From: Peptococcaceae bacterium BRH_c4b
GTDB lineage: Bacteria > Bacillota > Desulfotomaculia > Desulfotomaculales > Desulfocucumaceae
NCBI GenBank assembly: GCA_000961595.1
Contig: LADO01000059.1
Location: 1-64,000, forward strand
Reading direction: 5' to 3'
Length of the DNA: 64,000 nucleotides
Both the position numbers and the translations under genes were made by a program. The notes beneath the pieces are model-generated. The model was given only the letters and a program-made list of their open reading frames with translations. It was not told the origin of the DNA and searched no databases. Positions within the stretch are counted from its first letter, which is position 1; each line of letters opens with the position of its first letter. Of this stretch, positions 2,989 through 23,519 are shown piece after piece.

Positions 2989-4200
2989 TCAGGCACGGGC
3001 TTTATCCAGGGTGGTGTCCAGCGTAACCGTACCGCCCTGCAGAAGCCCTGCTATGCCGATAGCGGGAGTCTTTTGCTTTTCCTCCTGCATACCCGGCTCG
3101 GTATACAAATAAATATTACCTTCGAAATTTCTCAGCACTATTTTGCCCAGTCCTTGTGAAAGAACATAATTAGGACCCAGGGGGATTTTACCGCCACCGC
3201 CCGGCGCATCAATCACGAAAGTGGGTATGGCCAGTCCGCTCGTATGACCACGTAAATTTTCAATAAGCTCTATTCCAGTGCTAACCGGTGTACGAAAATG
3301 CCCTATGCCCTCGCTCAGGTCGCACTGGTATAGGTAATATGGCCGAACCCTGTTTTTCAGCAGTTTTTGTACCAGTTGTTTCATTGTTTCAGGATTGTCG
3401 TTAATTCCCTTCAACAGCACCGACTGGTTGCCCAGCGGGATACCCGCCCTAGCCAGCCTTGCACAAGCCCTGGTTGCCTCCCGGGTTAATTCCCTGGGAT
3501 GATTAAAATGTGTATTAATCCAGACGGGATGATACTTTTCCAGTAGTGAGCAGAGTTCAGGTGTTATTCTTTGCGGCAGCACAACGGGTGTTCTGGTGCC
3601 AATACGTATAATCTCCACGTGACGAATCGATCTGAGTTTTTGAAGAATGTATTCCAACTGGTCATCGGTAAGAGTAAAAGGATCTCCTCCCGATATAAGT
3701 ACATCCCTGATTACCGGATTGTTTTTGATATAAGAAAATGCACGTTCCAACTGGGCTTTCGGCATTAAACTATCATTGTGGCCTGCTATACGACGGCGGG
3801 TACAATGCCTGCAGTACATAGAACAACAATCGGTAACCAGCAAAAGCACCCTGTCAGGGTAACGGTGAGTGAGACCCGGCACAGGCGAGTCGATATCCTC
3901 GTGCAAGGGGTCCCGCATGTCGCCACGTGTACTTACCAGTTCTTCCTGCCTCGGAACAGCCTGTAATCTTATCGGGCAGTCTCGTTCGGCCGGATGCATC
4001 AAACTTGCGTAGTAGGGTGTAATGGCCATTCTGAATCTTTTCAGACATGATTTAATGTCTTCCTTTTCACTTTCATTTAGATCAATAAAGTGGGACAATT
4101 CTTCCACTGAAGTGATTCTGTGGCTAATCTGCCATCGCCAGTCGTTCCATTTTTCCTCGCTAATTTTAAACTTTTCCAAATAACACCATGCACTATTCAA
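2989..4200 (-). CDS. ablA: Lysine 2,3-aminomutase
   Basis: Radical SAM, PLP-dependent enzyme that converts L-lysine to L-beta-lysine; 403 residues, close to the usual KamA/AblA length. The cluster motif CX3CX2C is in CCSMYCRHCTRRR (about residues 125-133), and the PLP-lysine motif PGGGGKIPL is near residue 325. I chose TTG 4200 because GGGAGGG lies just upstream; an in-frame ATG at 4245 has no such site and adds residues the family does not need. Pairing with ablB points to osmolyte synthesis and not to lysine fermentation. Confidence 0.9.
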   Translation of the reverse strand: MNSAWCYLEKFKISEEKWNDWRWQISHRITSVEELSHFIDLNESEKEDIKSCLKRFRMAITPYYASLMHPAERDCPIRLQAVPRQEELVSTRGDMRDPLHEDIDSPVPGLTHRYPDRVLLLVTDCCSMYCRHCTRRRIAGHNDSLMPKAQLERAFSYIKNNPVIRDVLISGGDPFTLTDDQLEYILQKLRSIRHVEIIRIGTRTPVVLPQRITPELCSLLEKYHPVWINTHFNHPRELTREATRACARLARAGIPLGNQSVLLKGINDNPETMKQLVQKLLKNRVRPYYLYQCDLSEGIGHFRTPVSTGIELIENLRGHTSGLAIPTFVIDAPGGGGKIPLGPNYVLSQGLGKIVLRNFEGNIYLYTEPGMQEEKQKTPAIGIAGLLQGGTVTLDTTLDKARA

Positions 4201-7329: not shown

Positions 7330-10137
7330 TCAAATGTCGAAAGCATTTAAATTATCAGGCGAATGTTTAAGCCAGGAGTCCACCTTTCTTGCCACCATGT
7401 CAGAGTCACCCCGAAAATGATTTTTAAGAGGCAATGAATTGAAAAACAATCTGCCGTAACGTTTGCTGAGTAGTCTGCCATCAAGCACCACCACTGCACC
7501 ACGATCCTTTTCTGTGCGGATTAGCCTGCCAAACCCCTGTTTAAAGCGTATAACAGCCTGGGGTAAACTATACTGGTAAAAAGAATTTATGCCCATGCTT
7601 TCCAGTTGTTCAAGCCTGGCCTCGATGACAGGGACTGATGGTGACTGGAATGGCAGCTTAACAATAACCACACAACTTAATGAAGCCCCAGGAATGTCAA
7701 CTCCCTCCCAAAAGCTTGAAGCACCGAATAGTACTGCCCTCTCCGTATTTTTAAACTCCTCCACCAGGCGCCACCTTCCACCATCTATATTATGCCCCAG
7801 CAGGCATACGTCCTGCTCTTCCAACATTAGTTTCATCTTTCTGTATGTCTCTTTTAAAACCCTATGGGAGGTGAATAGTACTAGCGTTCTACCACCCGCA
7901 GCAGCAATCAGATCCTTTAAAACATTAACCAGCGCGCCTACGTAATCCTTTTCCGGGGATTCGCCCTGCTGGGGAACTCCCCTGACCACACATAATAAAG
8001 ACTGCTCTTCGTACCGAAAAGGGGAATCCACCAGCTTTAGACAAAGCCTGTCCTGCTCTGCCATAACGAGCCCGATACCCTCCATATAATGTTTAAACTC
8101 TCCATTTACGGTAAGTGTGGCGGAAGTCATCACCACCGGTTTGTAATCTTTAAACAGACTGTTGTAAATTTCCTGATCAACTCTCACCGGCGTCGAATGA
8201 AGTGAGATCAAAGGATTGTCTTGCTCCCCTGCAGCCTCAGCCCAGTATACGTAATTATTATCTGAGCAGGAGAAATTAAACTCAATATCCGCGATCAGTC
8301 CTTCTCCTGCAGCAATAATCTTTTCCGTTTCCTCTGCCCTGGTTTCCCAAACGTTATCCAACACCAGCCAGGAAAGTATTATTTCGTGCAACTCCCTGAC
8401 CAGTTCCAAAAGAGAGCGTATCCTGAAAAGCAGGTTCCCGAATTCCCCCAGGGGCATATTTGATGCATCATGCAGCATTTCCCCCTTCAGCCGGCGGGTT
8501 ATTTTTGTACCCTCACCACCAGAACCGGGTGCCAGTGCACCGTAAAGAAGCCCAAAAAATAAATCCGACGCCTGGCGAACCAGTATCCGCTCATCCCTTG
8601 CCGCATTCAGATTATCCTGCCAGCGGCCAGCGTTTGAGGGCGGAACTGTATCCAACAGCCGTGTTAAAAGCTTTCCCACCGTATTCAGCCACCGCTTCAT
8701 ATCGTTTCTGGATACTACGGTGCTTAGCTGTTCCGTAGCAGCATCGTCAAGATGATGCGCTTCGTCCAGAATTAGGGGACCATAAGCGGGAAGCACCCTG
8801 TTTTCAGCCTTTACATCTGCAAAAAGTAAGGCATGATTAGTGATAATCAATCTGGCCGCTTCGGACCTTCGACGTGCCCTGCCAACATAGCATTCTCCCG
8901 CATACCAGTGGCACCGGGCACCAGCACAACTCTCGCTGTCCCCGCAAATACTCAGCCAGAACTCCTGCTCCGGACCTTTTATGTTAAGTTCCACCCTGTC
9001 GCCCTGGCTGGTGTCAGCCAGCCATACCAGAATCCTGGCCAAAAAAAAGGCCTCCAGGGGCGTCCAGTTTCTTTCGGACAGAAGAGCATTCCATTTCCGC
9101 AGGCAGATATAATTCTGCCTTCCCTTGGCCAGAGCTACGGGTATATCAAGTCCCAAAGTATCCAGCAGTAGAGGTATGTCTTTTGCCCAGAGCTGCTCCT
9201 GCAAATTGATAGTCCTGGTGGAAACCACCACCCTGCTGCCCCCTGAGGAAGCCCAGAGAACGGCAGGCATAAGGTAGGCCATGGATTTGCCGATACCCGT
9301 ACCGGCTTCCACCAGCAGAAGCTTATCCTCATTCATGGCAGCGGCCACCTCTCCGGCCATGTCGATCTGCTGCTGTCTCACCTCGTACCCCGGCAAGGCC
9401 CTGGACAGGGCGCTTCCCTGCCCCAGAAATTCTTTAACCCTGTCTGGCTCGACAAATCCTTTTTCTCCTTCTACTGAAGGCATCCAGTTGTGCTCGGTGT
9501 AAAAATTTTCAGATTTAGAAGTTTTGGTAGTGAAATTGTTCCAGGCTGAACCGGTGGCCAATGATTGTACTACCGGACCCCACGACGAGGCCGCCCGGGT
9601 TAAAAACGCCGCCAAAAAGGACAGTTTTTTAACATCCATAACCCTGAGCCGGTTTATAAGAGCTTCACACAGCAGGTGTGCTGCCATGGCGTCTTCCAGT
9701 GCCCGGTGGCTGACAGGCATCTCCACCCCCAGCATTTTGCATAATTCCCCAAGCCGGTATCCGGATGCTCCCGGCAAAACTATCCTGGACAGTTCAAAAG
9801 TATCGTAAATCGCACCGATCATCCTACAGTCTGCTACAGATTCTATAAACCTGCAGTCAAAAACCACATTATGCCCCAGTATGTTTTCTCCATCAATAAA
9901 TTTCAAAATTTCCGGTAATATTTCGGATATTTCAGGCGCCCCGGCCAACAGATCATCTTCAAGTCCGGTAAGGCGTCTTATCTTTACTGGCAGGCGTTGG
10001 TGGGGCCGCACCAGTGATTGATAGGTTTGTATAACCCGGCCGCCTTCAACCTTGACCAACCCTATTTCGATTAATCTGTCCCTGGCCGGATCAAGACCGG
10101 TGGTTTCAAGATCCATAGCCACATAGCTGTTAAACAA
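7330..10137 (-). CDS. dinG: DinG-family helicase with DEDDh exonuclease domain
   Basis: Two-part protein of about 935 residues. Residues 1-170 are a DnaQ-like 3'-5' exonuclease (YVAMDLETTGLD; GHNVVFD; HRALEDA). The rest is an XPD/DinG-type superfamily 2 helicase with Walker A AGTGIGKS near 280, four clustered cysteines (CGDSESCAGARCHWYAGEC) suited to a 4Fe-4S cluster, the DEAHH box, and C-terminal motifs including FGASSFWEGVDIPG and QGFGRLIR. The four cysteines suggest a true Fe-S helicase, unlike Firmicute relatives lacking the cluster. I chose TTG 10137, 8 bases after GGAG; in-frame GTG 10146 and ATG 10143 sit too close to it. Likely role: repair or R-loop/replication-fork processing. Confidence 0.92.
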   Translation of the reverse strand: MFNSYVAMDLETTGLDPARDRLIEIGLVKVEGGRVIQTYQSLVRPHQRLPVKIRRLTGLEDDLLAGAPEISEILPEILKFIDGENILGHNVVFDCRFIESVADCRMIGAIYDTFELSRIVLPGASGYRLGELCKMLGVEMPVSHRALEDAMAAHLLCEALINRLRVMDVKKLSFLAAFLTRAASSWGPVVQSLATGSAWNNFTTKTSKSENFYTEHNWMPSVEGEKGFVEPDRVKEFLGQGSALSRALPGYEVRQQQIDMAGEVAAAMNEDKLLLVEAGTGIGKSMAYLMPAVLWASSGGSRVVVSTRTINLQEQLWAKDIPLLLDTLGLDIPVALAKGRQNYICLRKWNALLSERNWTPLEAFFLARILVWLADTSQGDRVELNIKGPEQEFWLSICGDSESCAGARCHWYAGECYVGRARRRSEAARLIITNHALLFADVKAENRVLPAYGPLILDEAHHLDDAATEQLSTVVSRNDMKRWLNTVGKLLTRLLDTVPPSNAGRWQDNLNAARDERILVRQASDLFFGLLYGALAPGSGGEGTKITRRLKGEMLHDASNMPLGEFGNLLFRIRSLLELVRELHEIILSWLVLDNVWETRAEETEKIIAAGEGLIADIEFNFSCSDNNYVYWAEAAGEQDNPLISLHSTPVRVDQEIYNSLFKDYKPVVMTSATLTVNGEFKHYMEGIGLVMAEQDRLCLKLVDSPFRYEEQSLLCVVRGVPQQGESPEKDYVGALVNVLKDLIAAAGGRTLVLFTSHRVLKETYRKMKLMLEEQDVCLLGHNIDGGRWRLVEEFKNTERAVLFGASSFWEGVDIPGASLSCVVIVKLPFQSPSVPVIEARLEQLESMGINSFYQYSLPQAVIRFKQGFGRLIRTEKDRGAVVVLDGRLLSKRYGRLFFNSLPLKNHFRGDSDMVARKVDSWLKHSPDNLNAFDI

Positions 10138-10229
10138 TGACATCACTCCGCACTACGACCGTATATACCCGATAATTCTTTTTCATCCCTGTAAAATCCT
10201 GCTACGCACTATTTAGGCGCCTGTTCAAA

Positions 10230-10802
10230 CTAACTATTTTCGCCGGGCGGCCCTGCACCTGTACTGTTGTCACTTGCGTCGGCTTTAGCCTGGGACGCGC
10301 TATTTTTCATTTTCTCGTCCACCAGTCCCTGTACTAGACTGGACAGGGGCTGTAGTAACATGGCCAAATCTGCCTGAGTTTTGGCCTGGGTAGCGCCTGG
10401 GACAATAGTCTCACTGTTCTTACTGCTTAGTACCGAACCTACTGAATCAACGGCAAGCTGCACACTGGACGCCAGTATAGCCAATACTTGCCCGAAAACC
10501 TTAACCCCATGCACTATTTTACGCAGGGTCTTATCTAGCCCTTCGCCGCTTTGCGCCTCAATATCCCTGCTGCTGAACAATTTTTCCATACTCCGAGCCA
10601 TTACATCCAGTCTGTTGATCATTTCCTCCTCTTCCCTGCGCTTCTCATTCATATGTTCCAGCCCATCAGACAGCCGATCAAGAACTGTTAAAATTTTTTC
10701 AGTATGTTCATTATCAACACTTTCCTTTATTTGCAACTTTTCTATTTTGTTCAACAATTGCTCCAGTGTGCTGTTGAATTTTTCGTTAACGGGCGATTCC
10801 AA
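10230..10802 (-). CDS. Orphan coiled-coil protein A
   Basis: Protein of 190 residues, not recognised. The first ~100 residues are heptad-rich (LEQLLNKIEKLQIKE...MNEKRREEEEMINRL). A nonpolar segment follows (KVFGQVLAILASSVQLAVDSVGSVL), then LLQPLSSLVQGLV and a disordered tail rich in A, S and G. It has the same architecture as the protein at 11266-11931. TTG 10802 is preceded by AAGGGGG; the longer in-frame ATG at 10859 has no such site. It diverges from the small gene at 10967, with a 164-base shared promoter region. Confidence 0.65.
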   Translation of the reverse strand: MESPVNEKFNSTLEQLLNKIEKLQIKESVDNEHTEKILTVLDRLSDGLEHMNEKRREEEEMINRLDVMARSMEKLFSSRDIEAQSGEGLDKTLRKIVHGVKVFGQVLAILASSVQLAVDSVGSVLSSKNSETIVPGATQAKTQADLAMLLQPLSSLVQGLVDEKMKNSASQAKADASDNSTGAGPPGENS

Positions 10803-10966
10803 CCTTTTTCCCCCTTCCGTGCCGTTGTAGCGGGCAAGTGTAAGGCAAAGCGGTTCCATTTATATAATTTATGTAAAGAAAAATCCGGTAGACCATTTTT
10901 TTATTTGGGTACATATTCGCTACTGCTGTCATAAATATGAATATAAAAAATTAGGAGGCGAAAATA

Positions 10967-11197
10967 TTGGATAAACAAACCTTTGATCCCGGCAATTTGC
11001 CGGAACCATTTAAAAGCATGCTTCAAAACATGGATCCCCAGGCGCTCCAGCAAATGCTTGCCATGCTGGACCCCGAAACCCTTTCATCATTAATGAATTC
11101 TACTTTTGGCATGATTAAAAACCAGTTGCCCCAGGAGCAAGAGCAGGTTATGTCACAATTGCTGGAAAACATAATTAAACTAATGTCCAACAAATAA
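10967..11197 (+). CDS. Small orphan helical protein
   Basis: 76 residues, Met/Gln/Leu-rich and helical: FDPGNLPEPFKSMLQNMDPQ, then QQMLAMLDPETLSSLMN and LPQEQEQVMSQLLENIIKLM. No family recognised. TTG start with AGGAGGCG upstream. It lies between the two paralogous coiled-coil genes, divergent from one and convergent with the other, and has its own terminator. It may act with them, which is inference from position alone. Confidence 0.7.
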   Translation: MDKQTFDPGNLPEPFKSMLQNMDPQALQQMLAMLDPETLSSLMNSTFGMIKNQLPQEQEQVMSQLLENIIKLMSNK

Positions 11198-11209
11198 TAG
11201 CAAAAATTT

Positions 11210-11234
11210 AAGGGCTGCTCACGCGGCCCTTTTA
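11210..11234 (+). terminator. Rho-independent terminator
   Basis: AAGGGCTGC, loop TCAC, GCGGCCCTT, then TTATT, just after the small gene at 10967-11197. Confidence 0.8.
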
Positions 11235-11265
11235 TTGTTGTCGCCTTATATTTTCCCTAAACGCT

Positions 11266-11931
11266 TTACTCCGCCGGGGTCGCTTTTACAACAGGAGCTG
11301 TTATGCCCTCCCCCTGCGGCTCTTCCCTGGCCTGTGGCCGTGAGCTTTCTTTTTCTTCCACCCCGGCGGGAACTTCTTCTACGCCGGCGGGAACTTCTTC
11401 CACGGGCTTTACAGATTCACTGGATTTTTTACTGAGCAGGGCCTGAACAATGCTGTTCATGGGCTGCAAAATGGAAGATAAATCAAGACCCGGGGTGCAC
11501 CTGGCACCAACCTGGCTATCAGACTTCCCTGCAACTGCTTCTTCGTTTACAAACAATTTGTTTACGGAATCCATAATACCCTGAAACCCGCCGGCTACTA
11601 TCTCTATCACCTGGCCCGTCACCTTTGCCCCATTGGTAACCATTTTTAAAACATCAACCAGGCCGGCGCCTTCTGCTCCTCCCCGGCCACCCCCGGCAAT
11701 TACTTCCAACTTTTCATTGACTGTGGAAAATCTTTCCGCCAGAATCATTTCTCGGGCCCGTAGCCTCTCAAGTTCCACCAGTACCTCTGTCATCTTGTCC
11801 AGGGAGGCAACCGCCCGGGATGATTGGTCCATATTAAATGTTTTTTCCTGATGCAGTCGCTCTAAGTTATTTACCAAAAGATCCAGAGTTTCGCTTAGTT
11901 GCCTGCTGGACCCACTGATCATACTGCTCAC
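11266..11931 (-). CDS. Orphan coiled-coil protein B, paralogue of A
   Basis: 221 residues; paralogue of the 10230-10802 protein. Shared blocks are the heptad-rich N-terminal half, GAKVTGQVIEIVAGGFQGIMDSVNKLF (GVKVFGQVLAILASSVQLAVDSVGSVL in A) and SSILQPMNSIVQALLSKK (AMLLQPLSSLVQGLVDEK in A). The tail is acidic/proline-rich with the repeated unit VEEVPAGVEEVPAGVEEK. Function unknown. GTG 11931 follows AAAGGAT; ATG 11922 is an alternative start. Confidence 0.65.
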   Translation of the reverse strand: MSSMISGSSRQLSETLDLLVNNLERLHQEKTFNMDQSSRAVASLDKMTEVLVELERLRAREMILAERFSTVNEKLEVIAGGGRGGAEGAGLVDVLKMVTNGAKVTGQVIEIVAGGFQGIMDSVNKLFVNEEAVAGKSDSQVGARCTPGLDLSSILQPMNSIVQALLSKKSSESVKPVEEVPAGVEEVPAGVEEKESSRPQAREEPQGEGITAPVVKATPAE

Positions 11932-17883: not shown

Positions 17884-17946
17884 TGGTCGGGGCAACACGA
17901 CTTGAACGTGCGGCCTCACGGTCCCGAAACGTGCGCTTTACCAAAC
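17884..17946 (-). pseudogene. tRNA-Pro(CGG) 3' part, severed by integration
   Basis: Read on the minus strand from the shared core: D-loop end, anticodon loop TTCGGGA (anticodon CGG), CCGTG, variable region, T-arm GCACGTTCAAGTCGTG, acceptor half TGCCCCG, A, CCA. The partner 5' acceptor half CGGGGCA is not here; it is at 22979-22973, 5.0 kb away. One base at the top of the anticodon stem (T for G, next to the core) differs from the expected sequence. Joining this to 22979-22947 rebuilds a full cloverleaf. Confidence 0.85.
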
Positions 17947-19598
17947 GGTTCTATTTCACTACCCGTATTCACCACTTGATTGCTATGTTTTTGGAAGTTC
18001 TTTACGGTTATTTTGTAATTAATGTCAACGCCTTCTTTATTTACCACTATCTTGTCAATAACTTGATTCATCAAAGCTTTCTTTACATTCAAGTCACCCT
18101 GGTCATATCTTGTCATCCATGTATCCAAGCTGTTGTCAAGTGTCTCATAATCACTAACGACAATTTTTTCATTCTTAATCTCATCGTCTATATTTGATAG
18201 CTCGACTAATAATTCATCCATTTCAACTTGAAGCTCATTCAAGCTTTCCCTTAACTCAGCAGAAGTGTATTCACTCTTATTCCGTAAGGCTTTTGGAATC
18301 TCTTTCTTCAATGCCTTTATATCCTCTTGAATATCAACGAGTTTTTTTTCTTTTTCCTTCTTAGATTTGACAAGCTGTATTACATTTTTCTCTATGGAGT
18401 CCTTAAATTCCTTTGATAATTTTTTGTGCTGTTGCTGTTTGATAAACTTCTTGGTTTCTTGTTCTACTAGAATGTCTATTTTAGATGCGCTGTAAGTCTT
18501 CTGTCCCTCACATTCGATGCGACCACTAGCTGTACCAGAAGGGCATCTGTAACAGTCTTTAACATATACTGTCTTCTCTCCATCCTTCTTCTTATAGTTT
18601 TTGTAATTCGCCCACACGTTCATTTTGCTACCGCAATGACCGCAGTAAACTAATCCGCTTAACAGGACTCGACTTTGTGTAATTCCCATCCTTGGATTTT
18701 TGGTAGTCGTTTTCCTATTCTTCATTATCGTCTGGTTCTTCTCCCAAATTTCTTCTGGAATAATAACCAAATGCTCTTGCTTCTTTGACAGAAATTCTTC
18801 ATCACGCAATTTGCTGTCGAAGTGGAAATAGCCTTTGTACATAGGGTTATTCAATATGTACTGGATGCTCCTAAACGACCAACCATTTGGACTTTTAGCC
18901 TTATCTTTGTAGAGACTTTTATCATCGTTAAAGAGTGTTGCTATTGCTCTAGCACCCATGTTGCTCTCTATTGACAGGGTATAAATAGCTACGACTATCT
19001 CAGCCGTTTCGGGGTCAATTTCAAAATCCAAGATGTTTCTACCCTTATCATTAAGAGTACCGTTGTTGACCGTCTTATATCCATAGGGGATGGTCTTGTT
19101 ACCACCTCCCCTAAATTTACCCTTCTCAGTTAATTTAATATGGAAGTCAGTTGAGCGATTGGCGATTTTGATACTCTCATTTTCATTGTTCCAATACATA
19201 AAATAAGTCATCAACTTGTCTGTTTGGCTGGAATACTTTAGCTCTCCTTCTCTCACTGAGAGAACCCTGATACCTCTTTCAATCAAGTACTTGATGACCA
19301 TAGGGCTTTCTTCTGAGCTACGACCAATCCGGTCTGAATAGTAGACTACCAGCACATCAAAAGATTTCTTCTCTGCCATAGCTTTGATTTTCGTTAAGGC
19401 ATCCCTGTCAGCAACCTTTACCTTGAAACCGGAAACTCCACCCTCAACAAACTCTCTGAATTTTATTAAACCCTCACGCTCAATAAACTCATCGTTCAAT
19501 TCCCTTTGTGCAGGGATATCTTTGTCTTCCCCTGTAGTTTGTTTCGACGTGGAAGCTCTGACCAAGCTGATTGCCTTTAATCCTTCAACATTAAACAT
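17916..19598 (-). CDS. Large serine recombinase (integrase)
   Basis: 560 residues. N-terminal resolvase domain with the nucleophile in ISLVRASTSKQ (Ser16) and YYSDRIGRSSEE; recombinase domain with IPYGYKTV and NPMYKGYFHF; zinc ribbon (CGHCGSKM ... CYRCPSGTASGRIEC); long C-terminal coiled coil from about 385 to 480. ATG 19598 has GGGGGTG upstream. Its last codons read through the attachment core (EPFGKAH) into tRNA sequence (VSGP, stop in the tRNA). In the excised circle the frame would instead continue GDKTQPQFIVNV and run 22 residues past the core. It is the obvious mover of the element. Confidence 0.93.
   Translation of the reverse strand: MFNVEGLKAISLVRASTSKQTTGEDKDIPAQRELNDEFIEREGLIKFREFVEGGVSGFKVKVADRDALTKIKAMAEKKSFDVLVVYYSDRIGRSSEESPMVIKYLIERGIRVLSVREGELKYSSQTDKLMTYFMYWNNENESIKIANRSTDFHIKLTEKGKFRGGGNKTIPYGYKTVNNGTLNDKGRNILDFEIDPETAEIVVAIYTLSIESNMGARAIATLFNDDKSLYKDKAKSPNGWSFRSIQYILNNPMYKGYFHFDSKLRDEEFLSKKQEHLVIIPEEIWEKNQTIMKNRKTTTKNPRMGITQSRVLLSGLVYCGHCGSKMNVWANYKNYKKKDGEKTVYVKDCYRCPSGTASGRIECEGQKTYSASKIDILVEQETKKFIKQQQHKKLSKEFKDSIEKNVIQLVKSKKEKEKKLVDIQEDIKALKKEIPKALRNKSEYTSAELRESLNELQVEMDELLVELSNIDDEIKNEKIVVSDYETLDNSLDTWMTRYDQGDLNVKKALMNQVIDKIVVNKEGVDINYKITVKNFQKHSNQVVNTGSEIEPFGKAHVSGP
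17930..17946. other. Attachment site core, left (17-bp direct repeat)
   Basis: CGTGCGCTTTACCAAAC, identical to 22949-22965 in the same orientation. It spans the D-arm/anticodon-stem boundary of the split tRNA gene. To its left the sequence is tRNA; to its right it is the recombinase gene. Confidence 0.85.
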
Positions 19599-19659
19599 GT
19601 ATGCACCCCCTTAAAAATTGGTAGTGTGATAGAACCAATGGCAACAAAAATATACTAAC

Positions 19660-20148
19660 ATGAAAGAGGGTGCATGTCAACCTGCGCTGGCCTGTAGTAA
19701 CTTTATAGATGCTCCTGGTGGGTTTATACCTACCCCTGAAGGTTATATCCTTGGAGGCCACGCTATAACGGCTATAGGGTGGGACAATAACCTTACGCAT
19801 ACCTATCCTAATGGGGAGACTGAGAAGGGCTTTATAATCATTCTGAACAGTTGGGGTGAGGATTGGGGAGATAAAGGAATTGGGTACATCCCCTACAGCC
19901 TGTTCAACTGGAAGACAGACTTGGGTATGACCTTTGTAATAGAGATGTGGTCTGTTGTTGATTTGAATAATACTGTTAAGCATTACAAGGTTCAAATTGG
20001 TGCATTTAAACTATGTAAAAGTTCACTCCAGTTGGGTAAATTTGTAGGGGCTTTTTTGCTAATGCCAGAACCAACAAATATACCACAATTACCTTTCTTT
20101 AGCACATTTAGCAATAATGGGGGAAGCATATTTACCTCCTGCTTTTGA
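19660..20148 (+). pseudogene. Papain-like (C1A) peptidase, C-terminal fragment
   Basis: The catalytic His and Asn regions of a papain-fold peptidase are present (GGHAITAIGWDNN; GFIIILNSWGEDWGDKGIGYIP), but the N-terminal half with the catalytic Cys is absent. The frame begins within the domain just upstream of the recombinase start. After the domain comes HYKVQIGAFK, reminiscent of a SPOR-type repeat. A ribosome binding site upstream of ATG 19660 is not evident. It is most likely a remnant of a longer secreted peptidase gene cut by a rearrangement in the element. Confidence 0.65.
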
Positions 20149-20225
20149 ATACTCAAAAAATTGCCGTCTATATTTTACACTTATTCTTGATACACATGGA
20201 TATTTTACCATATTAACCTCTTGAA

Positions 20226-20259
20226 AAAAATAGGTAGGCATAATTACCTACCTATTTTA
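20226..20259. terminator. Bidirectional terminator 1 of the element
   Basis: AAAATAGGTAGGCATAATTA is followed by the complementary CCTACCTATTTT, giving a perfect stem with A- and T-runs. Confidence 0.8.
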
Positions 20260-20321
20260 TAACAGGATTTTCCTCCTATGTGTTGAATATAAAAGTAATA
20301 TTTTACAGCGTGGAGGTTAAT

Positions 20322-20855
20322 ATGCTTGAGTTTATGTCACAGTTAAGCTGGTTGTTTGAGGGCATAGTTACAGCGATACTCGTATTTTTCTTAACATCAT
20401 TGCATGATAAGAAGAAAGACAGAAAACGCAACATGAATTTGCTAACATCAGTTACATACGAGTTAATCTACAATTTAAGAAGATATACGGAATTTATGGA
20501 GGAAATGGATAAATGTGATAATATGGTTTTAATAAAACCACGATACAAGAACAAAGCTTGGGAAGAAACCAAGCATGAATTAGCATCATGCTTACCTCAA
20601 TTCGTCTTTAATGCCACAGAATCTTTGTATGAGGGGTTAGTAGAATTATCAGAATACAACGAAAAAGTTTTTTGTTGTACTCCAGAGCTTCATAAAACTC
20701 TGGTTGACACTAAGGAGAAATTATTAGAAAAAACTACCAGTTATTACTGTGTTTTAACAAAAATTAACTATGATATACATTCGCCAAAGGATATTGAAAA
20801 TTATAGTGAATTAATCCCAAGGAAAGTGATAAAAAAAGTAAGAAGCATGAAATAA
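20322..20855 (+). CDS. Membrane-anchored hypothetical protein
   Basis: About 177 residues from ATG 20322, chosen for GGAGGTTAAT directly upstream. One N-terminal membrane helix (LFEGIVTAILVFFLTSLH), then a basic patch (DKKKDRKRN) and a helical cytoplasmic domain with several cysteines. No family recognised. As cargo next to a restriction-like gene it could be a defence or immunity component, but nothing in the sequence proves that. Confidence 0.7.
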   Translation: MLEFMSQLSWLFEGIVTAILVFFLTSLHDKKKDRKRNMNLLTSVTYELIYNLRRYTEFMEEMDKCDNMVLIKPRYKNKAWEETKHELASCLPQFVFNATESLYEGLVELSEYNEKVFCCTPELHKTLVDTKEKLLEKTTSYYCVLTKINYDIHSPKDIENYSELIPRKVIKKVRSMK

Positions 20856-20890
20856 AGTGGGTAGGCATTAAGGCTACCCACTTTATTTTT
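20854..20890. terminator. Bidirectional terminator 2 of the element
   Basis: AAAGTGGGTAGGC, ATTAAG, GCTACCCACTTT, then ATTTTT. It has the same core (GGTAGGC) as the hairpins at 20226 and 22730. Confidence 0.85.
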
Positions 20891-21013
20891 CTGGTCGGAA
20901 TGATATACAAACAAATATCTTGCATATTTTGTCGAAATATTTATAAAGGAAATCTATATTATTAATCGAAAATAATTTTAAATATTCTGTTTTGGATTCT
21001 TTGGAGGCTATAT

Positions 21014-22680
21014 ATGAATAATTCCGAACAGCTACGAGCAATAGAATTTGAGAACATCGAACTAACCACTATCATTCAAAGGTTGGAAAATGGTCAATAT
21101 GCAATACCAGTATTCCAAAGAGACTTTGTTTGGGATAAAAGCAATATACGTGATTTATGGGATAGTATCTATAGACATTATCCCATAGGTAGTTTTTTAA
21201 TTTGGGAAACTGACGAGCAGTTACCAAGACACAGAAATATATTAAATATTGAACTAAAGGAAAATAGCAAAGGTAAATTTAACTATGTACTGGATGGACA
21301 ACAAAGGATAACTTCAATTATTGGTGCAGTTAAAGGCGCAAAGCGCAATAGGACTAGTTTTAAATTGTTTTTTAATATTTCAAAAGCCTATGAGATGTCT
21401 AAAAAAGACTTATTAGACCAAATTAGCAATAGTCCTTTTCTGACTGAGAAAGAATTAAAAGACTCCAGCAGTTCCGACCAAGTACTGCCTCTAGAAAAAT
21501 TACTGGATTTTGACTCTGCTATTTACAGAAACTTAAGCCAGATTAATTATGATTTGTCAGATTACTACTTGACTATTTCTGAAAAATTTAGAAAAGACTA
21601 CAAAGTTTCAGTATAAAGCTTAACAACATACCCATAGAGGAAATATGCGATATATTTACACGAGTAAACCAAAAAGGCAAGAAACTTAGTTTAGTTGACC
21701 TAATGGTTGCTAAAACTTATAAGCAAGATGAATTTTATTTACGGGATAACTTGGATGAACTTCAAGATTACTTACTTAAAGAAGATTACGATGGAATTGA
21801 TGAGCTGGTATTTCTACGTACAGTATCAGTTCACAAAACCCAAAAATGTTCAGAATCCGACATCTTAGATATTAAAAGTGATGATATTTTAGCTTTATGG
21901 GAAAAGACAACGACATCTATTATTCAGGCAACAAGACACTTAAAAGATGAAATAGGAATTACATCCCCTAAGATACTACCTTATTCAACAATGTTAGTTC
22001 CTCTTTCATATTTCTTTTTTAGATTAGGCAACAAAACTTTTCATGAAGAATATAAATCAGCCATTAATAAATGGTTTTGGCGAAGCAGTTTATCAGGTAG
22101 ATATCAAGCCCATACTAATGAAATAATTCATAATGATTGTTTATGGTTTGACGAACTAATACAAAACAAAACTTATGAACCTCGGGTTCCTAAGTTTGAA
22201 ATAAATGAAGAAACAATTTTAGAGACAGTGCTTAACTTAAATAATGCTTCCAGTAATTCTATCTTATGCCTTTTAGCATCTAAAAAGCCTATTGACTTTT
22301 ATAATCATCAAACAATTAAAATAAATGAGGTTTTAATTAAAGGTAAAAAAAGTGAATTGCATCATATATTCCCTAGAAATTCTAAAACAGGCAAAGAAAA
22401 TTCTAATAATATTGACAGTATAGCTAATATATGTTTTTTGCCAAGAGATACAAATAGATTATTCAGCAATAAAGAACCTAGCAATTATTTTTCTATATCT
22501 TTAAAAAATAATAGCATATACTTTCTGTCTGATTTAGAGACCCACCTAATTCCCCCATCAAATAATTCACCTATTTGGACGGACGAATATGATAAGTTTT
22601 TAAAACAGAGAGCAACCTTAATTAAAAATGAAATAAACAAAATTTTAGACTATCTAGAAATCTTGCCTGAAGATAATTAA
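21014..22680 (+). pseudogene. DUF262-HNH nuclease (GmrSD-like), frameshifted
   Basis: Frame 1 (21014-21616, 200 residues, GGAGG upstream) is the DUF262 half: YAIPVFQRDFVWD and the NTPase-like YVLDGQQRITSI. It stops at KVSV. The adjoining frame resumes at once with IKLNNIPIEEICDIFTRVNQ, KGKKLSLVDLMVAKTY and continues to 22680, ending in a His-Asn motif region (LHHIFPRN...NNIDSIANICFLPRDTN) of DUF1524/HNH type. Adding one base near 21612-21616 gives a single ~555-residue protein. This architecture is that of type IV modification-dependent restriction (GmrSD/BrxU-like). It is a recent single-base lesion, two separate chains, or a sequencing error. No slippery heptamer is visible. Confidence 0.75.
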
Positions 22681-22729
22681 ATGTTCATATGTACAATAAA
22701 GCAAACCATATGTAGTTAAGTTTAACGAT

Positions 22730-22770
22730 AAAAAGTGGGTAGGCGTAATTGCCTACCCACTTTTTATTTT
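22730..22770. terminator. Bidirectional terminator 3 of the element
   Basis: AAAAAGTGGGTAGGC, GTAATT, GCCTACCCACTTTTT. It separates the DUF262-HNH gene (plus) from the tRNA-Pro gene (minus). Confidence 0.88.
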
Positions 22771-22772
22771 AT

Positions 22773-22850
22773 TGGTCGGGATGACACGACTTGAACGTGC
22801 GGCCTCTGCGTCCCGAACGCAGCGCTCTAGCCAAACTGAGCTACATCCCG
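22773..22850 (-). tRNA. tRNA-Pro (CGG), intact, carried inside the element
   Basis: 78 bases with encoded CCA. Acceptor CGGGATG pairs perfectly with CATCCCG; D-arm GCTCAGTTTGGCTAGAGC; anticodon stem CTGCG/CGCAG around loop TTCGGGA (CGG); T-arm GCACG TTCAAGT CGTGT. The acceptor stem differs from the split host tRNA (CGGGGCA/TGCCCCG), so it is a different gene copy, not a shifted fragment. It lies 99 bases inside the right attachment core. Confidence 0.95.
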
Positions 22851-22946
22851 TAAGCAAAAATTATTATATCAATATTTTTTTCATGAAGCAAGGTTAAATT
22901 TTACCTTTCGAGTGACATTAACAATGAATTGGGGTTGTGTTTTGTC

Positions 22947-22979
22947 ACCGTGCGCTTTACCAAACTGAGCTATGCCCCG
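22947..22979 (-). pseudogene. tRNA-Pro(CGG) 5' part, severed by integration
   Basis: Minus strand CGGGGCATAGCTCAGTTTGG followed by TAAAGCGCACGG: acceptor 5' strand, D-arm and the 5' side of the anticodon stem. It then runs into element sequence (GACAAAACAC) instead of the anticodon loop. It complements 17884-17946 exactly. Confidence 0.88.
22949..22965. other. Attachment site core, right (17-bp direct repeat)
   Basis: CGTGCGCTTTACCAAAC, identical to 17930-17946. To its right is the tRNA 5' half and chromosome; to its left the element. Confidence 0.85.
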
Positions 22980-23039
22980 TTATTACTTGACGCAAAATAT
23001 TTTATGCAATATCTCACCACAAAAGTCAACGTGGAATTG

Positions 23040-23519
23040 TTACCAGACGGCTGTAAAGAACCAGATGATCATGCCTGCTTCCACCACCAGCTTTAGAACC
23101 GTACCGCCTGCCAGCCCCAGCAGCGTTCCGAACCCCACCCTGACCGCCCTGTCCAGGGGTTTTTTATCAATCAATTCTCCGGCCACCGCACCCAGGAACG
23201 GCCCCAGAATAATCCCCAGCGGGCCCAGCAGCAGTATGCCAAACACCAGCCCGGCTATGCCGCCCCACATAGCAGCCCGGGAGCCGCCGTATCTGTGCAC
23301 TCCCCAGGCGTTAGCGGCAAAATCAATAAAAAAAACCAGCGCTACGGCGGCAGCCTGCAATATAAAAAACCACAGCGACAGATTGTAAAAGCCGGTGAAC
23401 AGTCCGTATATAACCATGCCCAGAAAAATTAACGGCGCGCCAGGAAGCGCCGGCAGCACAGTGCCGGCCACTCCGGCGGCAAAAAACAAAATAGCGATAA
23501 TCATTCCCAGTATACTCAT
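23040..23519 (-). CDS. DUF456 membrane protein
   Basis: 159 residues with several hydrophobic, Gly-rich segments (GVAGTVLPALPGAPLIFLGMVIYG; GPLGIILGPFLGAVAGELI), the pattern of DUF456. Function unknown. ATG 23519 follows GGGGGAG. It would be the chromosomal neighbour of the tRNA-Pro gene before the element arrived. Confidence 0.85.
   Translation of the reverse strand: MSILGMIIAILFFAAGVAGTVLPALPGAPLIFLGMVIYGLFTGFYNLSLWFFILQAAAVALVFFIDFAANAWGVHRYGGSRAAMWGGIAGLVFGILLLGPLGIILGPFLGAVAGELIDKKPLDRAVRVGFGTLLGLAGGTVLKLVVEAGMIIWFFTAVW

Follow-up and report, generated by a model that had tools for sequence, protein, structure and literature searches.

The element described here, a small integrative element or prophage remnant, has very probably used a serine integrase to break the single-copy tRNA-Pro(CGG) gene of its host, and has replaced it with a complete gene of its own. 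It occupies positions 17930-22965 (~5 kb) of the stretch of DNA that was analysed, a 64-kb piece of the genome of Peptococcaceae bacterium BRH_c4b that we refer to as the window. The GC content of the element is 34.5%, compared to 48.2% in the rest of the window.

The host gene lies in two parts on the reverse strand, the 5' part at 22949-22979 and the 3' part at 17884-17946, and each part includes one copy of a 17-bp attachment core, CGTGCGCTTTACCAAAC. In the whole window this core occurs exactly twice, at 17930-17946 (left copy) and 22949-22965 (right copy). Both copies are identical and read on the forward strand, and no inverted copy was found in the 64 kb. When the outer flanks were joined through the core, ARAGORN called a 77-nt tRNA-Pro(CGG) with a fully paired 7-bp acceptor stem, while neither half was called as a tRNA when it was submitted separately. 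A split tRNA-Pro(CGG) with an identical 17-bp core and two incomplete halves, as claimed in the preliminary description, is thus confirmed. The same description had placed the break near the anticodon, with no rebuilt 3' end. Indeed, the gene is broken and its 3' end is not rebuilt, but the position can be given more precisely, since the core spans the region from the D-loop to the anticodon stem. Neither element junction holds a complete host tRNA, and the short core does not rebuild the gene, which rules out ordinary, tRNA-restoring integration. Loss of the element had also been expected to heal the host gene. The joined halves are called as tRNA-Pro(CGG), but mismatches at two stem positions (13-22 and 31-39) are present in the joined gene, and healing on excision may therefore be imperfect after drift. 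Upstream of the 5' half the host promoter is still present (TTGACT-17-CATAAA, 23001-23029, reverse strand). Since the blocks TTGACTTT and TGCATAA in this upstream region are invariant in five genomes, we regard the split gene as the resident copy.

An intact 77-nt tRNA-Pro(CGG) gene adjoins adk in two relatives, G007 and G003. In G007 the order is DUF456, tRNA and adk within a total of ~1.4 kb, with less than 300 bases separating the two protein genes. That the gene is whole at the same place in both genomes argues that the split in the window is not due to chance. The comparison set held one genome per species, and these empty-site relatives are related to the window at the family level only, with flanking proteins 71-86% identical, unlike the nearly identical flanks of the tRNA-Val case described below. 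As anticipated, relatives with the same neighbours have one intact tRNA-Pro(CGG) at this site and not two. A BLAST search of the genome to which the window belongs revealed three complete tRNA-Pro genes, namely TGG, GGG and the carried CGG gene, which is the only intact CGG copy found. Neither a relative with both tRNAs at the locus nor a redundant CGG gene, either of which would have spoken against the preliminary description, was recovered. CCG accounts for 36% of the proline codons when 29 long host ORFs of the window are counted.

Two further relatives show disturbances at the same gene. In G002 (L101:8077-8105, corresponding to C148:23076-23104) other DNA interrupts tRNA-Pro(CGG) after GAGCGCA, an independent break at nearly the same base as in the window. 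No replacement tRNA was present before the contig end, and BLAST found no intact tRNA-Pro(CGG) in this genome. In G004 a contig (L107:1-38, C46) starts within the anticodon of the same gene, and adk lies on a different contig without the tRNA 3' half; the site may be occupied or rearranged in this genome too.

The intact tRNA-Pro(CGG) that had been reported within the right end of the element was called by ARAGORN at 22773-22850 on the reverse strand (78 nt; Rfam tRNA, 62.8 bits). It is of the same isoacceptor as the broken gene, with the host promoter and 5' half 97 bp upstream of it. A candidate promoter of its own, TTGCTT-17-TATAAT, can be read at 22863-22891 on the reverse strand, with an equivalent, TTGCAT-17-TATTAT, in the metagenomic contig L140 that is discussed below. 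Either this promoter or that of the host could drive the carried gene. A strict consensus promoter scan of positions 22600-23200 was empty and called neither of the two, so that the promoter assignments rest on conservation and on reading of the sequence. Directly downstream of the carried tRNA is a terminator-like hairpin (22727-22768) that resembles a second one in the element. These two similar hairpins (GTGGGTAGGC...GCCTACCCAC, 20850-20888 and 22728-22767) match their own reverse complements at 87-90%. The carried tRNA is 91% and the joined host tRNA 90% identical to the G007 gene. This near-equal likeness suggests a related host as the probable source of the carried copy, and it also means that sequence similarity alone cannot tell which copy is foreign. 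In the region corresponding to the core the carried tRNA reads GTTTGGCTAGAGCGCTGCG and differs from the attachment core GTTTGGTAAAGCGCACG, a change that would fit protection from further integration.

The integrase gene (17916-19598, reverse strand) encodes 560 aa in the integrated state. Its ORF is intact, with the N-terminal resolvase, recombinase and zinc ribbon domains of a large serine integrase (Pfam Resolvase, Recombinase, Zn_ribbon_recom; PHROG integrase), and a coiled C-terminal region was read from the sequence only. The last codons are read from the 3' half of the host tRNA, giving the tail ..GKAHVSGP. When the element ends were joined in silico, the integrase grew from 560 to 578 aa and ended in GDKTQPQFIVNVTRKVKFNLAS (...KTQPQFIVNVTRKVKFNLAS). 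The detached gene end lies at 22881-22948 on the reverse strand, and in the reconstructed circle the carried tRNA starts 30 bp past the integrase stop. The same arrangement was found in L140 (IMG/VR contig IMGVR_UViG_3300025534_000028), whose integrase is 48% identical to that of the window and forms a clade with it (support 99). Its C-terminus, YKTQPQNFIINVTRNVKFSIAS (...KTQPQNFIINVTRNVKFSIAS), matches the circle form of the window integrase, and a tRNA-Pro(CGG) follows 32 bp past the stop. The gene content of L140 is phage-like; reading of its ORFs gave several DNA methyltransferases and an N-acetylmuramoyl-L-alanine-amidase-like protein. The L140 attP region does not contain the 17-bp core of the window. 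The matching detached C-terminus and adjoining tRNA in a separate contig point to an attP within the integrase gene and to a tRNA that is element cargo, and this match is the strongest evidence for both. Both the reconstructed circle and the gene order of L140 add weight to the earlier view of the tRNA as a passenger of the element. Large serine integrases are characterized by a directional reaction of attP with attB around a central dinucleotide; dyad symmetry at the attP of the element is weak (13/23, shuffle p ~0.045). Integrase scans of the genome contigs gave no matches, searches at order and class level returned no close relative, and all matches to the window integrase in phage and plasmid collections were below 30% identity.

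These observations suggest the following course of events. The integrase of this element would recombine the host's single-copy tRNA-Pro(CGG) gene with attP, which is placed in the terminal part of the integrase gene. The insertion would cut the host gene between the D-arm and the anticodon stem, where the short core does not rebuild it, and would exchange the last residues of the integrase for a short tail from the host tRNA. The carried tRNA, located just past the integrase gene in the circle, would thereby come to lie 97 bp downstream of the host promoter and 5' half. Transcribed from its own promoter, by read-through from the host promoter or by both, and charged, the complete carried tRNA-Pro(CGG) would compensate for the broken gene, and its altered anticodon stem would probably make it a poor attachment site.

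The remaining cargo is small. A papain-like C1 peptidase gene fragment (19660-20148, forward strand) matches Pfam Peptidase_C1 over residues 33-74 only and is probably decayed. It is followed on the same strand by an ORF for which profile searches gave no family (20280-20855) and by a gene of the GmrSD_N (DUF262) type (21014-22680; E 1.5e-25). The latter is frameshifted between 21616 and 21703, and both pieces match one PADLOC model, PDC-M55C. No phage structural genes were seen in the 5-kb element.

A parallel case was found for tRNA-Val(GAC). In the single-contig genome G475, a 2-kb element consisting of an integrase and a tRNA-Val(GAC) lies between the two halves of the host tRNA-Val(GAC), of which one reads GATCTGTTAGCTCAGCT.. 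and the other ..TTGACAGGGTAGGGGTCAGTGGTTCGAGCCCACTACAGATCA. The integrase is missing from five relatives (G520, G505, G496, G527, G177), and these have an intact tRNA-Val(GAC) in nearly identical flanks. This type of integrase occurs in 12 genomes and is interrupted by stops or frameshifts in nine of them, and all 12 have a carried tRNA-Val(GAC) that was called as intact. A full-length host-type tRNA-Val(GAC) was found in none of these occupied genomes, the next match being tRNA-Ala(GGC). Of the tRNA genes typed in G475 (96/101), six are Val(TAC) and a single one, the carried copy, is Val(GAC). In G543, an integrase remnant (C11:315858) and the carried tRNA-Val (C11:380001) lie 62 kb apart, which shows that the tRNA persists after the element was split.

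A further group concerns tRNA-Ala(GGC). In several genomes the 3' half of the host gene supplies the last codons of the integrase, which then ends in ..GRAHRWQR; upstream of it and on the opposite strand there is an intact tRNA-Ala(GGC). In G518 the host 5' half lies at a distance of ~4 kb, and in L147 and L148 it lies 100-106 bp upstream of the carried tRNA. L165, L172 and L179 carry tRNA-Lys(CTT) in addition to tRNA-Ala(GGC). In L165 (G528; 1228-1391 and 3145-3309) a host tRNA-Lys stands directly behind the broken tRNA-Ala, and the element hence seems to replace an operon. Of this arrangement, seven viral contigs (L197, L198, L200, L201, L205, L209, L213) show the integrase followed by tRNA-Ala. 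One of them, L201, is a 349-kb IMG/VR contig (IMGVR_UViG_3300024999_000029) with an integrase of this group and tRNA-Ala(GGC) 17 bp further on (10001-11828). The integrases of the Val and Ala systems are more distant from that of the window than the L140 integrase is, and outside the Val group, G518 and the window itself, only one end of many loci was seen. We also considered a universal rule of promoter capture, as a spacing of 50-106 bp separates the host 5' half from the carried tRNA downstream of it in L147/L148 and in a large part of the Val group. It was dropped as a rule because the G518 tRNA is ~2 kb from the 5' half and because the window and L140 have promoter candidates of their own.

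Some further observations concern single loci. In L150 (17857-18144, G326) the first 24 nt of tRNA-Ala are repeated twice more, ~106 bp apart and in a row upstream of an intact tRNA-Ala(GGC). These repeats look like possible scars of stacked insertions, and L150 suggests that self-protection by an altered core is not general. In L195 (11600-11674) the C-terminal region of the integrase contains the tRNA core as SYSGRAP and continues for another 21 aa, so that L195 apparently represents an attP form. The stop in L194 is at the same position. On the Ruminococcus albus plasmid pRUMAL02 (L295, ~7700-7780), a related integrase is followed by an apparent tRNA 3' half with a GTT anticodon (Asn-like).

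Other explanations of the locus were weighed against replacement. The host might have had two tandem tRNA-Pro(CGG) genes, of which the element broke one, the carried copy being an ordinary neighbour. This would agree with the carried tRNA being as similar to the host tRNA of relatives as the joined gene is. However, relatives have a single tRNA at the locus, the carried copy sits between the two cores, and the restored integrase frame ends 30 bp before it, as is the order in L140. On the basis of synteny and the reconstructed circle we reject tandem host tRNAs, and we give this reading almost no probability. It is also very unlikely that the carried tRNA serves translation of the phage or element, or evasion of a tRNA-cleaving defence, with an incidental match of the isoacceptor. 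Phage tRNAs are often explained in this way (discussed in PMC10865867), but CCG codons are few in the element (2.3 per 1000 vs 15.8 in host ORFs). Moreover, the carried isoacceptor is that of the broken gene for Pro, Val and Ala alike, and tRNA-Lys is also carried where a host tRNA-Lys follows the broken tRNA-Ala.

More thought has to be given to a dead, fixed remnant, in which the tRNA was replaced once, the integrase is inactive and the remainder has been domesticated by the host. The decayed cargo, with its frameshifted GmrSD-like gene and peptidase fragment, points in this direction, as does the Val group, where integrases are mostly dead and the tRNAs persist. On the other hand, the ORF of the window integrase is unbroken and retains all three domains, and the two end copies of the core have not diverged. 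We therefore consider this state possible, although on balance doubtful.

Replacement of the host tRNA by the carried copy is well supported. That the carried tRNA also acts as a kind of addiction factor is plausible. This idea is favoured by the Val group, where carried tRNAs have stayed intact in genomes with broken integrases, a pattern that fits a carried copy which could not be dropped once the host gene was broken. Strict essentiality of tRNA-Pro(CGG) is disfavoured, since G002 seems to have lost this tRNA. Furthermore, tRNA-Pro(UGG) can often read CCG. The case for dependence is weaker for tRNA-Pro(CGG) on both grounds, as no intact CGG gene was found in G002.

Classical tRNA-targeting islands and prophages use a tyrosine integrase and carry the tRNA 3' end, so that the tRNA is rebuilt. 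The window element shares with them the tRNA gene as attachment site and a core made of tRNA sequence, but here the gene is cut between the D-arm and the anticodon stem, and the element brings a complete second gene instead. Tycheposons of Prochlorococcus, which are tyrosine recombinase elements, resemble the window element in being mobile, tied to tRNA genes and carriers of tRNA sequence. The closest known system is tRNA-dependent lysogeny in the tyrosine-integrase actinobacteriophages Fionnbharth, LeBron and Gaia, where a core of 8-17 bp at a tRNA gene does not rebuild it and a phage tRNA of the same isotype complements the loss (PMC10865867). In the window, too, attB overlaps a host tRNA gene, a short core of 17 bp does not rebuild it and a tRNA of the same isotype is carried. 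The published definition further includes a temperate phage and a phage tRNA that is needed for a viable lysogen; for the latter, the Val group gives indirect support. The differences are that the integrase belongs to the serine family, that hosts are outside the Actinobacteria and that some elements are only 2-5 kb in size. In addition, the Fionnbharth tRNA gene overlaps gene 37 and has its own tested promoter, whereas here the integrase gene contains attP and is followed closely by the tRNA. Streptococcal serine-integrase ICEs in rumA also have attP inside the integrase gene, with direct repeats of 2-21 bp (PMC4701971). As in the window, their integration exchanges the 3' parts of the target and integrase genes, but these ICEs insert into a protein gene and bring no substitute for it. 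Replaced tRNAs have also been noted in Sinorhizobium (PMC11476347). The principle has thus been published for tyrosine integrases (PMC10865867). In the open-access literature, no paper was found to describe a serine integrase together with a split tRNA and a carried replacement, and within that literature the combination appears to be new.

Judged from the sequences compared, the window element appears to belong to a recurrent serine-integrase counterpart of tRNA-dependent lysogeny that acts on tRNA-Pro, tRNA-Val and tRNA-Ala. We lean toward the broader view that serine integrases specialised on breaking and replacing single-copy tRNA genes form a widespread clade in Bacillota and their phages. 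Its members would have attP in the integrase end, carry a whole tRNA or tRNA operon and have their C-terminus rewritten by the same integration that puts the host tRNA out of use. The element could not be lost once the carried tRNA is the sole copy, and the foreign tRNA would be kept as a gene of the host after the death of the integrase. For genome engineering this calls for caution, because integrases of this group may destroy a single-copy tRNA gene unless a replacement is supplied. For the biology of these elements, the data suggest that gene-destroying integration with a carried tRNA has arisen with serine integrases too, and outside the Actinobacteria. It would offer a direct route by which foreign copies replace host tRNA genes, and a simple means by which an element makes its own loss costly; such an element may be hard to lose.
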